NCBI GenBank assembly: GCA_029265615.1
Contig: JAJUIB010000022.1
Span: 1-38,549 of the forward strand
Direction of reading: 5' to 3'
From: Spirochaetota bacterium
GTDB lineage: Bacteria; Spirochaetota; Spirochaetia; Treponematales; Rectinemataceae
DNA length: 38,549 nucleotides
Shown: one piece after another, positions 19,493-22,862 of the stretch
Layout of the letters: every line of letters starts with the position of its first letter
How positions within the stretch are numbered: position 1 is the stretch's first letter
Notes under the pieces: model-generated
What the model was told of the DNA's origin: nothing
Database searches by the model: none
What the model saw: the letters and a program-made list of their open reading frames with translations, nothing else
Program-made: the position numbers and the translations under genes

Positions 19493-20676
19493 TTCCCGAA
19501 AATTTGCGCACATCGTTTCAAAGCCTGGCCGGGAACAAGCTACGTACGCTCCTTTCGATGATTGGCATCGTCATCGGCGTTGCGAGCGTGGTGGCGATCA
19601 CCTCGTACGGCTCGAGCGCCGCCGAAAACATAAAGGCGCAGATCGCGAAGGCGGGGCTCGAGACGATCACTGTCGCGCTTGGCCGCGATGCCGGCGCCGA
19701 GGCGCGGCGCCTCTTCAAAGATACGCTTGCGCCATCGCTTGCGGCCGTCGACGGTGTTCTTGATGCGATCCCTGTTAACCAGCGGAGCGTGACCATCCGC
19801 GCGGGCAAGGAGACCGCAACCGATACGCTTGTCACGGCGACGAGCGGATTTAAAGCGCTCTTTTCCCTCGAGGCGGCCGAAGGGCGGTTCATCTCGGACG
19901 AGGACGCCAAGGAACGGAGCCCCGTTGTGGTGCTTGGTGCCGAGCTTGCGACGACCCTTTTCCCCGCAGGCGGGGCGGTCGGCTCCTATGTCCGCGTTCT
20001 CGGTGAGAATCCCCAGCAGCTGCGCGTCATCGGGGTGCTTGCAGAGAAAAACGACACGATGGGCATGAGCTTCGACTCCTCGGCCTTTGTCCCACGGAGC
20101 ACCTACCTTTCGCGAATAGCCCGGCCTAGCCGTCCCGATCGCTTCGTCATCCGTGCCGATGCCGCACGAGATCCTGCGGCGACCGCAAAGCGCATCGAAA
20201 CCTTCTTTTTTGAACTCACTGGTAGTTCGAGCGCCGTTCGCGTCATGTCGCCCTCGACCATCGCGGAAACGATGAGCGGCGTTACTCAGACGCTTGCCGC
20301 CTTCCTAACCGGCATCGCGGCGATTTCGCTCGTCGTGGGCGGCATTGGCATCATGAACATCATGTTGGTGTCCGTTACCGAGCGGACGCGCGAGATCGGT
20401 ATACGTAAAGCGATCGGCGCGCAGCCCGGTGCGATTCTTGCGCAATTCCTTACCGAGGCGGTCGTGTTGACTGGCTCCGGCGGCCTCGCAGGCGTCGCGC
20501 TTGGAGCCCTTGCAAGCTATGTCGCCACCCGTGTCCTCAGCTATCCCTTTGTCCTTTCGGCGAGTGCCTGTGTGCTCGCCTGGGGCGTATCGGCGGCCAC
20601 CGGCATCTTTTTCGGCCTTTACCCCGCTGCTCGAGCGGCGCGACTTGATCCGGTTGCCGCCCTCAGTTACGAGTAA
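19489..20676 (+). CDS. MacB/FtsX-type ABC permease
   Basis: This 395-aa permease has the standard MacB layout: an N-terminal membrane helix (about 20-42, MIGIVIGVASVVAI), a large extracytoplasmic domain (about 45-265), then three C-terminal helices with GGIGIMNIMLVSVTERTREI, the FtsX-domain hallmark. It works with the separate ATPase just upstream. Together they replace the fused MacB of enterobacteria. The substrate may be a drug, peptide or lipid-like compound; it cannot be told from sequence. It is the last gene of the operon. A short AGCGC...GCGCT stem with a CU-rich tail starts at the stop codon. Confidence 0.92.
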   Translation: MIPENLRTSFQSLAGNKLRTLLSMIGIVIGVASVVAITSYGSSAAENIKAQIAKAGLETITVALGRDAGAEARRLFKDTLAPSLAAVDGVLDAIPVNQRSVTIRAGKETATDTLVTATSGFKALFSLEAAEGRFISDEDAKERSPVVVLGAELATTLFPAGGAVGSYVRVLGENPQQLRVIGVLAEKNDTMGMSFDSSAFVPRSTYLSRIARPSRPDRFVIRADAARDPAATAKRIETFFFELTGSSSAVRVMSPSTIAETMSGVTQTLAAFLTGIAAISLVVGGIGIMNIMLVSVTERTREIGIRKAIGAQPGAILAQFLTEAVVLTGSGGLAGVALGALASYVATRVLSYPFVLSASACVLAWGVSAATGIFFGLYPAARAARLDPVAALSYE

Positions 20677-20970
20677 GCGCGCGAAGGCGCTCTTTCTCTT
20701 GCGGCCGCCCGCGCGGCCGCAAGAAGCTTGGGGAAATTGTCAACAAACTCTGCGTGTGTGCGAAAGATGGGCAAGAAGTATGTGCGAGGCAACACTTTGA
20801 GTTCGAATCCGCCCCCTGGGCGTGTAGACGCTTGTCTCATGGACCGTGTAGACAACTGTCTACGGTAAATTCTCCTCGATTTGCTTGCAAACTTTTGCCG
20901 CGGGGGATAGTTTTTTCACCGTACCGCGGCAGGATGCTGGCCGTACACTGGTTCCCTCGTGGTACGCAAA
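20677..20970. other. Intergenic region with three inverted repeats
   Basis: No gene is supported here. It contains a 12-bp perfect stem (20697-20708 with 20713-20724) that probably ends the efflux operon although it lacks a T run. A 16-bp palindrome GTAGACA-AC-TGTCTAC (20848-20863) is preceded by a partial copy, TGTAGACG (20823-20830). An 8-bp inverted repeat TGCCGCGG/CCGCGGCA (20896-20903 with 20924-20931) encloses a T run. Confidence 0.6.
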
Positions 20971-21160
20971 AGGTAAAAATACCGCCCGAGGCGGGTAGGT
21001 AAAAAAGTTCCGGTCCGGCGACCGGGGTGTAAAAAAAGGCGAACGGGTCCTCGGGGCCCAGGTAAGAACAGGCCGGCCGATGAGGCCGGAAGGTAAAAAA
21101 GTTTTAGGCCTTGTGCCGGGGAGGTAAAAAAGGGCACAAAGGGGCGCTCCATGGGGAGCG
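20971..21160 (-). repeat. Array of six A-tract/hairpin units, about 31-bp period
   Basis: Six copies of AGGTAAAAAAG or near variants have their T at 20974, 21000, 21030, 21063, 21094 and 21125, that is 26, 30, 33, 31 and 31 bp apart. Most spacers are GC palindromes of different sequence: CCGCC/GGCGG, CCGGTC/GACCGG, an imperfect GGGTCC/GGGCCC, and CCGGCC/GGCCGG. After the last unit comes GGGGCGCTCC/GGAGCGCCCC (21141-21150 with 21151-21160 region). On the minus strand each palindrome is followed by CTTTTTTACCT, so the array reads as serial intrinsic terminators behind the ABC-2 operon that ends at 21218. The spacer between the last two units pairs poorly. The A-tracts are close to three helical turns apart, which would also bend the DNA. 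Confidence 0.75.
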
Positions 21161-21217
21161 CCCCTTGCGCATTTTAAAGTGCGCGACCTACAAGCCTGTC
21201 AGCGGCCTTCCGCTGTT

Positions 21218-22021
21218 TTACATGCGTGCGCCGATGCGGTTCCCTGACTCGTAGCGCCTAAGCCCCGCGCGGAAGAGGGCATAGGAGGCTCCAGCATATG
21301 CTGCGGCTGCAAAGACGATGAGGGGGACGAGCCTCAGGTCCAGGCTACGAAAGGCTGCAAGCGGCAGGAACGCGATGAAGCCCGAGGGGACAAGGGTGTA
21401 GAACACCCAGCGCATCCCGGGACCAAAAATCGTCTCGGGGTACAGTGAAAAGGACAGAATAAACTCCATCACGGCGCTTGAAATCGCGTCGGCATTGCCC
21501 AGAAAGAACGCAAGACATTCCGCTGCCGCGAATGTCGCTGCGAAGAGAATGCCTCCTGAGAGCGTGAAGAGCGCAAAAAGGGCAAAGCGCTCAAGATTCA
21601 TGCCCGGGAGGAGCGCAAGGACGATGAAACCGTAGGCAAGGTCCCCCCACGCGGAAATGACGCTTTTTGAGACAAGAATGTTCAAAAACGCATCTTTGGG
21701 TTGGAGCAAGTAGATATCGAGTTCGCCGTTGACGATGATGTTTCCGAGGTTGCGGACATTGCCAAACAGCACATGGGCAAGACCGAAGGCCGAGGAGACC
21801 ACCGCCCAGACAAACATCACGTCGGCGAATGTGTAGCCGCCGATTCCGCCTGTCCTATCGATGAGCACCTTCCAAAAAAGCGCAAAGGCTGCGTTGTTGA
21901 GCATCATGCCAAAGAACTGAATCAGGAAGTTCGCGCGGTACTCGAATGCGGCAAGAAGGTTTATCGCGAAGGCGGCGCGGAGAAAGCGGGCGTAGGCCCG
22001 GATGCGTTCGTGTATGCGCAT
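21218..22021 (-). CDS. ABC-2 family permease (second of a pair)
   Basis: This 267-aa inner-membrane protein has six hydrophobic segments, of the ABC-2-type permease group usually found as a pair with a dedicated ATPase (COG3694/COG4587/COG4586 type). The start at MRIHERIRAYARF is chosen because GGAGG lies five bases upstream and the first permease stops one base before it; the open frame extends 71 codons further inside that gene. NGELDIYLLQPKDAF is a typical cytoplasmic coupling segment. The substrate of this exporter group is not well established. It is the last gene of the operon, facing the hairpin array. Confidence 0.88.
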   Translation of the reverse strand: MRIHERIRAYARFLRAAFAINLLAAFEYRANFLIQFFGMMLNNAAFALFWKVLIDRTGGIGGYTFADVMFVWAVVSSAFGLAHVLFGNVRNLGNIIVNGELDIYLLQPKDAFLNILVSKSVISAWGDLAYGFIVLALLPGMNLERFALFALFTLSGGILFAATFAAAECLAFFLGNADAISSAVMEFILSFSLYPETIFGPGMRWVFYTLVPSGFIAFLPLAAFRSLDLRLVPLIVFAAAAYAGASYALFRAGLRRYESGNRIGARM

Positions 22022-22022
22022 G

Positions 22023-22862
22023 TCAGCCTCCATTGACGCTGAGGTTTTTCCTCGCCGCACGGAAGACGAGGAGGCACAGAGCGTAGGCAAGTACGCCCCA
22101 TGCTGCCTGGCTTTCGAGGAGCCGGAAAGTTTCGCCGGGGCTGGCGGCGACGGCGATCCGCGCCGGTGCGTATGCCACCGCCGGAAGCGGGGTTGCGGCA
22201 ACGATTGTCTGTGCGGTCTGCGGCAGGAATTCAAGCGGCAGGAGGGTCCCCGCCACGAGGTAGAGCTTTTGGTAAATCCAGAAAAAGGCCGAGTTTTCTT
22301 CCGTCCAGAATGCAGTCATCGCGATGAGAAACTGGAGGGAGAATTGCACGGCGCCTGCAAACACGAGGGCGAGGGCGAGGGCGGCGAGGCGCCAGGCTTC
22401 GAGCCCCGGCGGAGGCCCCACGAACGCAAGGCCAAGGGCCGAGCCTTCCACGAGAAAAACCGCCGCGTCGACGAGGGCGGGACCCAATGCCTCGGCGAAG
22501 TGGTAGCCGACAAAGCTGTACGGCCGTCCGACGAGATAGCTCACCTGTCCTGATTTTACATCCTCGGAAAGCCGCGAAAAGAATCCGCCAAAGGCGAAGA
22601 TCGATATCTCGGCGATGATGAAGTACCAGACCGTCATGGAAAGGCTGTAGCCCGCGATGCGGCCAGCGCTTCCGGCCGCACCGAGCCGCGCGGCGAAGGC
22701 GGCGTTCCATATGTGGCAGAACACAAAGACGAACAGGCCGTAGCTGAGCGCTCGTCCGCCATAATTCCCAAGATAGGCGAGGCGGCTCTTGAGGCCGGTC
22801 GTCCCGGCGAGAAGGTACTTGCGCAGTGCGGTGATCCGTTTTTTCGTGCGTGGATCGCTCAC
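22023..22862 (-). CDS. ABC-2 family permease (first of a pair)
   Basis: This 279-aa protein has six membrane segments and a basic cytoplasmic N-terminus. VKSGQVSYLVGRPYSF occupies the same place as the coupling segment in the second permease, so the two proteins are paralogous halves of one channel. The GTG start overlaps the ATPase stop by four bases (GTGA), with AAGGAAGG upstream. Translation of all three genes is coupled. Confidence 0.88.
   Translation of the reverse strand: MSDPRTKKRITALRKYLLAGTTGLKSRLAYLGNYGGRALSYGLFVFVFCHIWNAAFAARLGAAGSAGRIAGYSLSMTVWYFIIAEISIFAFGGFFSRLSEDVKSGQVSYLVGRPYSFVGYHFAEALGPALVDAAVFLVEGSALGLAFVGPPPGLEAWRLAALALALVFAGAVQFSLQFLIAMTAFWTEENSAFFWIYQKLYLVAGTLLPLEFLPQTAQTIVAATPLPAVAYAPARIAVAASPGETFRLLESQAAWGVLAYALCLLVFRAARKNLSVNGG

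Follow-up and report, generated by a model that had tools for sequence, protein, structure and literature searches.

What is the role of the array of six short A-rich units that lies between two convergent operons in the window, the 38,549-nt stretch of DNA from a spirochaete genome of 2.7 Mb (G000) that was analyzed here? The units are of the AGGTAAAAA type, span positions 20971-21132 with core spacings of 26, 30, 33, 31, and 31 bp, and are separated by GC palindromes; a recount agrees in these points with an earlier note made from the window. The gene setting given there also stands: a plus-strand MacAB efflux operon, which ends at 20676, faces a minus-strand ABC-2 operon, which ends at 21218. 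The nearest named relative of the ABC-2 protein comes from a Lake Pavin Spirochaetes MAG. The earlier note interpreted the array as serial minus-strand terminators, with a possible second role in DNA bending or protein binding. Comparison with related genomes points elsewhere, and most likely the array is the body of a previously undescribed gene for a small regulatory RNA (sRNA), located on the plus strand at about 20920-21175. Post-transcriptional control in spirochaetes lacking Hfq is poorly known, and an sRNA with a promoter, an operator, a likely regulator, and a repeated motif identified would give a concrete handle on it, with the motif as bait for an RNA-binding protein and the operator defining a regulon.

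The Array and Its Sequence Statistics

The motif GTAARAR occurs six times in the window array compared to 0.64 times in dinucleotide shuffles (p = 0.001). A genome pattern search found the paired pattern at this locus only, so that the array is a single locus in G000; outside it, AGGTAAAAAAG matches exactly at four sites, all isolated single copies in apparent coding sequence. Four of the inter-unit spacers form stems (CCGCC/GGCGG, CCGGTC/GACCGG, GGGTCC/GGGCCC, and CCGGCC/GGCCGG), the fifth has a weak one, and the array is closed by an end hairpin of 12 bp (21139-21166). The self-complementarity described earlier thus holds for four spacers and the end hairpin in the window; in relatives, the hairpins between units are not conserved. 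Three window spacers have terminator-like scores on the minus strand, and both strands together have four such hits vs. 1.0 in shuffles. Additional features of the window, absent from the earlier note, are a palindrome upstream of the array, a predicted promoter, and predicted plus-strand termination (Table 1). Two further repeats were seen in the neighborhood: an 11-bp perfect GC hairpin, CTTGCGGCCGC-CCGC-GCGGCCGCAAG, without T-run directly 3' of the MacAB operon (20698-20723), and a perfect CGAGGG hexamer repeat of 3.3 copies inside the ABC-2 operon (22364-22383).

Table 1. Predicted features of the sRNA locus in the window.
Feature	Position	Strand	Remark
Second operator copy GTAGACGCTTGTCTCA, degenerate	20824..20839	none	2 mismatches
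Operator palindrome GTAGACAACTGTCTAC	20848..20863	none	Exact match; centre ~-65 from predicted transcription start
Promoter: TTGCAA 20885-20890, 17 nt, TAGTTT 20908-20913	20885..20913	+	Geometry kept in relatives
Predicted small RNA, ~256 nt	20920..21175	+	Promoter and terminator on same strand in 8 species
5' leader with GCCGT(AC)	20920..20970	+	GCCGT equally placed in 8/8 family members
Linker motif 1 AGGUAAAAAU; DNA AGGTAAAAAT	20971..20980	+	
Linker motif 2 AGGUAAAAAAG; DNA AGGTAAAAAAG	20997..21007	+	
Linker motif 3 GUGUAAAAAAAG; DNA GTGTAAAAAAAG	21027..21038	+	
Linker motif 4 AGGUAAGAAC; DNA AGGTAAGAAC	21060..21069	+	
Linker motif 5 AGGUAAAAAAG; DNA AGGTAAAAAAG	21091..21101	+	
Last linker GGGGAGGUAAAAAAG, containing invariant GGAGGUAAAAA	21118..21132	+	DNA AGGTAAAAAAG at 21122-21132
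Terminator hairpin, 12-bp stem, loop AUGG, tail GCGCAUUUU	21139..21175	+	Stem covariation
Back-up terminator-like hairpin CAGCGGCCTTCCGCTG-TTTT	21200..21219	+	Terminator scan

Distribution in Related Genomes

A gapped pattern search over 59 relatives yielded two arrays adjoining the same ABC-2 operon, one in a genome of the same genus (G001) and one in a genome of the same family (G003). In both, a convergent gene with a weak PAS-fold match parts the array from the operon. The G001 array has a divergent gene for a protein of ~173 aa, and a query with this protein added G002, G008, G015, and G017 as well as three members of a sister family, f4 (G040, G048, and G084); in G002, G008, and G017 the array was not found beside the ABC-2 gene, which is located on other contigs. 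A covariance model built from the terminator together with the last linker, trained on seven genomes and run on 244, recovered all seven training genomes at 52-73 bits with one place each, and added G018, absent from the training set, at 49.5 bits, with which inspection of the locus agreed. The remaining matches scored at most 38 bits, and the few inspected looked like ordinary terminators or chance matches. The element is hence present as a single copy in eight species of the window's family, the window and seven others. The taxonomic spread of the relatives, several of which are fragmented drafts, is given as families within one order.

Across the family the element has two to six A-rich linkers with spacers that are often hairpins; three members have two linkers only, and multivalency is modest there. 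GTAARAR is enriched over shuffles in six of the eight species (p 0.001-0.003), and G017 and G002 have one match each without enrichment over shuffles. Spacings in relatives are 28 bp, or 55, 29, and 26 bp in G001, and 39, 18, 35, and 19 bp in G018, which has five GTAARAR cores (AGGTAAAAA, AGGTAAGAA, AGGTAAGAA, AGGTAAAAG, and AGGTAAAAA). The search of relatives proposed in the earlier note accordingly does find arrays, but not at the ~31-bp period expected. At some units of G018 and G001 the hairpins are weak or missing and the motifs are kept. Because the motif stays as its copy number varies, and because G018 retains its copies with weak inter-unit pairing, the motif is regarded as the conserved unit. 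Conservation therefore extends to the promoter, the terminator, and the motif in its unpaired state, and not to the inter-unit hairpins or the 31-bp phase. As a separate observation, the RNA gene of G003 carries an inverted-repeat element of ~110 bp inserted in one spacer hairpin, with a similar second copy ~600 bp away (L056 ~1540-1650 and 2240-2340).

Operator, Promoter, and the LuxR Operon

The window operator GTAGACAACTGTCTAC is an exact palindrome and the sole GTAGACANNTGTCTAC site in G000. Such sites occur in only nine of the 59 genomes, where several precede similar elements. In relatives, the palindrome GTAGACAnnTGTCTAC lies upstream of the RNA in perfect or degenerate form, and a second site is present toward the divergent operon. 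Among 12 genomes of two families, the TTG of the -35 box starts 37 nt from the palindrome start in 11 and 38 nt in one, and TAnnnT follows at 16-17 nt in 11, the exception being G008. A generic consensus promoter scan did not call the window promoter.

The RNA of G001, G002, G008, G015, and G017 has beside it a divergently oriented operon that encodes a protein of ~175 aa and a LuxR-HTH protein (PF00196) with an N-terminal hydrophobic region that is probably a membrane region; in G000 this operon is unlinked to the RNA and found on contig C26 (L111 2814-4057). The palindrome is also kept in three genomes where no such RNA was seen beside the operon: in G037 and G032 it precedes the operon, and in G009 it is located upstream of the LuxR gene. 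These cases are consistent with the palindrome being the site of the operon's LuxR regulator, and we infer that the membrane LuxR-HTH protein binds it. The palindrome centre, at about -65, is placed where an activator acting from upstream of the -35 box could bind. The palindrome is also present before a PAS gene in G001 and before a response-regulator-like gene and another LuxR-like gene in G017, and since it precedes further genes in other genomes it likely defines a regulon.

Some side observations concern the same sites and genes. The palindrome was also seen near glycosyltransferase-like genes; these sites and those before the PAS, response-regulator-like, and LuxR-like genes are at loci L065/L074, L076, L079, and L068. 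The two-gene operon, with homologs at L080-L109, is conserved in several families of the order, and its ~175-aa protein has invariant W, C, H, R, Y, and N positions. Pfam, NCBIfam, and PADLOC gave no match to this protein, and a PDB profile search gave chance-level matches only.

Termination, Structure, and Non-coding Character

In the last linker, GGAGGUAAAAA is identical in all seven aligned species and is also present in G018. The stem of the end hairpin that follows has changed on both sides at 10 of 12 pairs, and 95% of cells are paired compared to 41-55% when the partner strand is slid; its covariation score was reached by none of 500 shuffles. The covariation that the earlier note had suggested looking for is therefore strong in the end stem, and the inter-unit hairpins are not conserved. 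Most relatives have a plus-strand T-run after the end hairpin, such as GGGCGCCTGATTC-TTTTT in G003 and GGCGCTTCG-TTTTTTT in G015; that of the window is poor or degenerate (GCGCATTTT). The GC stem, the U-run, and the conserved pairing of a single plus-strand intrinsic terminator were all found.

The predicted window RNA of 256 nt has an MFE z-score of -2.9, and the minus strand of the window also folds well (z -4.3). In all eight species the linkers are predicted to be unpaired with a probability of 0.61-0.84, vs. 0.28-0.43 elsewhere, and in every species adenines are less paired in the linkers than outside, so that linker unpairedness is not merely an effect of base composition. No Rfam family matched the window at gathering score, the window and its relatives giving only sub-threshold chance matches, and BLASTN against plasmid and phage collections gave no match.

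A translated small ORF was considered and rejected, as no reading frame is common to the members and the motif carries UAA in varying frames. Within one genus only, g8 (G008 and G017; L083 and L086), there is an open frame with the similar sequence MPY..RP..TV..KK..GGGKN, which probably reflects nucleotide conservation, although it may encode a small peptide there.

Comparison shows that the element is conserved, on which strand it lies, that its promoter geometry is kept, that its terminator covaries, that its motif is repeated, and that it is non-coding in character.

Proposed Function and Alternative Explanations

We infer from these features that the element is transcribed, regulated by a LuxR-type protein, and active in protein titration. 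Its identity as a LuxR-controlled plus-strand sRNA is very probable; the full explanation, in which the repeated motifs of this RNA titrate an RNA-binding protein, is put forward with moderate confidence. A LuxR-type regulator, probably the membrane LuxR-HTH protein whose gene is divergent from the RNA in relatives, would bind GTAGACAACTGTCTAC at ~65 bp before the start. Binding would activate the RNA or, with lower probability, repress it. In the RNA, weakly conserved hairpins would keep apart several unpaired A-rich motifs of consensus ANGUAARAA, the last copy always being GGAGGUAAAAA, and an intrinsic terminator would close the molecule. The repeated motif would be the working part, several copies per RNA binding and titrating the protein, since decoy RNAs are built in this way, as regulated RNAs that carry one unpaired motif several times. 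If titration is true, this would be a further multi-site decoy RNA, built on a new motif. CsrA, encoded once in each RNA-bearing genome including G000, and proteins with an RRM domain (RRM_1) are candidate partners; the latter are not diagnostic, because nearly all relatives have them, RNA present or not.

More tentatively, with the odds somewhat against it, the locus could belong to a Gac/Rsm-like circuit of Spirochaetota with an independent origin, in which the membrane LuxR regulator, paired with the ~175-aa protein, would switch on the sRNA and the sRNA would titrate a global RNA-binding protein. The repeated binding sites would then be AGGUAARAA (AAACCAU in the sister family), and the titrated protein neither CsrA via GGA nor Hfq.

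Given a regulated sRNA, titration of an RNA-binding protein by the motifs falls a little short of an even chance, action by base pairing is rather unlikely, and some other role slightly less likely again. Base pairing would make the RNA a multi-seed antisense sRNA whose AGGUAAAAA motifs are seeds for mRNAs with UUUUUACCU-like or UUUUUACC sites, and a short, unpaired motif that recurs almost unchanged would suit such seeds. This reading, which we rate as unlikely, is opposed by the motif complements, which are not enriched in 351 translation-initiation regions, defined by rough gene calls in 439 kb sampled from the genome (7-mers 5 vs. 4.2 shuffled; 8-mers 2 vs. 0.9), and by Hfq, the usual partner, which was not found. 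The missing enrichment makes a large set of targets less likely but not a small one, and a few specific targets may lie outside the 439-kb sample. Tandem ~31-nt units with an A-rich site plus a terminator also recall the RNA array of a type III toxin-antitoxin system of the ToxI kind. For this explanation, to which we give hardly any weight, the plus strand lacks a conserved following gene: no ToxN-like gene is present downstream on the same strand, where the window has the convergent ABC-2 gene and G001 and G003 the convergent PAS gene, and no downstream gene common to other members was seen. Moreover, the unit sequences outside the linker are not repeated, and the divergent ~175-aa protein matches nothing in the databases mentioned above.

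The readings of the earlier note concern DNA and the other strand. Serial terminators on the minus strand, insulating the two convergent operons (ABC-2 and MacAB) from each other, would account for the three spacers that score on the minus strand and for the place of the window array 3' of the ABC-2 gene, and tandem intrinsic terminators likewise have successive GC hairpins beside T-runs on one strand. Here, however, the hairpins are not conserved and the promoter and end terminator are oppositely directed: relatives have the T-run of the end hairpin and a promoter of fixed geometry on the plus strand, and an intervening gene or an ABC-2 operon on another contig; plus-strand promoter elements are conserved, and G018 lacks strong stems. 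This makes the reading very improbable, and window hairpins may cause incidental bidirectional or minus-strand termination. A curved-DNA or protein-DNA element with A-tracts in helical phase is still more improbable: spacings of 30-33 bp in the window are near three helical turns, but the spacing is different in every relative, as in G001 and G018, and the motif, its unpaired state, the promoter, and the terminator are kept. The main support for serial terminators and for bending by three-turn phasing is gone, because neither the inter-unit hairpins nor the 31-bp phase is conserved. Of the earlier proposals, a binding role for the repeated motif is likely.

Comparison With Known Regulatory RNAs

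Rsm/Csr RNAs use GGA motifs and are driven by the LuxR-HTH regulator GacA via the upstream activating sequence (UAS) TGTAAG-N6-CTTACA (PMC4950607). Like RsmX/Y/Z and CsrB of the GacS/GacA system, the element described here appears as a stand-alone sRNA with a palindromic upstream site and a putative LuxR-HTH regulator, in which hairpins present many copies of one short unpaired motif. It differs in the motif (AGGUAARAA), in the operator (GTAGACAnnTGTCTAC), and in the putative regulator, which is a membrane LuxR-HTH protein and not a receiver-domain response regulator. A Csr/Rsm sponge was rejected, as GGA occurs three times in the window RNA compared to 4.2 expected and is enriched in no member. 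In the Pseudomonadaceae, CrcZ and CrcY titrate Hfq/Crc with several unpaired A-rich motifs, AANAANAA (PMC5429807). Multiple unpaired A-rich motifs on one sRNA are found here too, but with another motif, a promoter that is sigma-70-like and not RpoN-dependent, and unrelated sequences. An Hfq decoy of the CrcZ type was likewise rejected, since Hfq (PF17209) was found in none of the 59 genomes with positive controls. The window RNA thus resembles Csr/Rsm RNAs and CrcZ in design and by these tests belongs to neither group. The Bacteroides sRNAs FopS and GibS, which are bound by the RRM-1 protein RbpB, combine a conserved region that stays unpaired with an intrinsic terminator (PMC11697453). These two features and RRM_1 proteins are present here as well, but FopS forms a multicopy family that has a single seed, whereas the window RNA is single copy with repeated motifs.

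The Element in a Sister Family

In the f4 genomes G048, G040, and G084 the element agrees with that of the window's family in its operator, its promoter geometry, and its divergent position beside the LuxR operon, and G043 has the same operator and promoter with the element apart from the LuxR operon. The RNA core in f4 has AAACCAU repeats instead of AGGUAAAAA (loci L087, L088, L085, and L072), with two copies each in G048 and G040 vs. 0.01-0.02 expected, and one each in G084 and G043. In G090, AUGUAAAAACCAGG combines features of both motifs.
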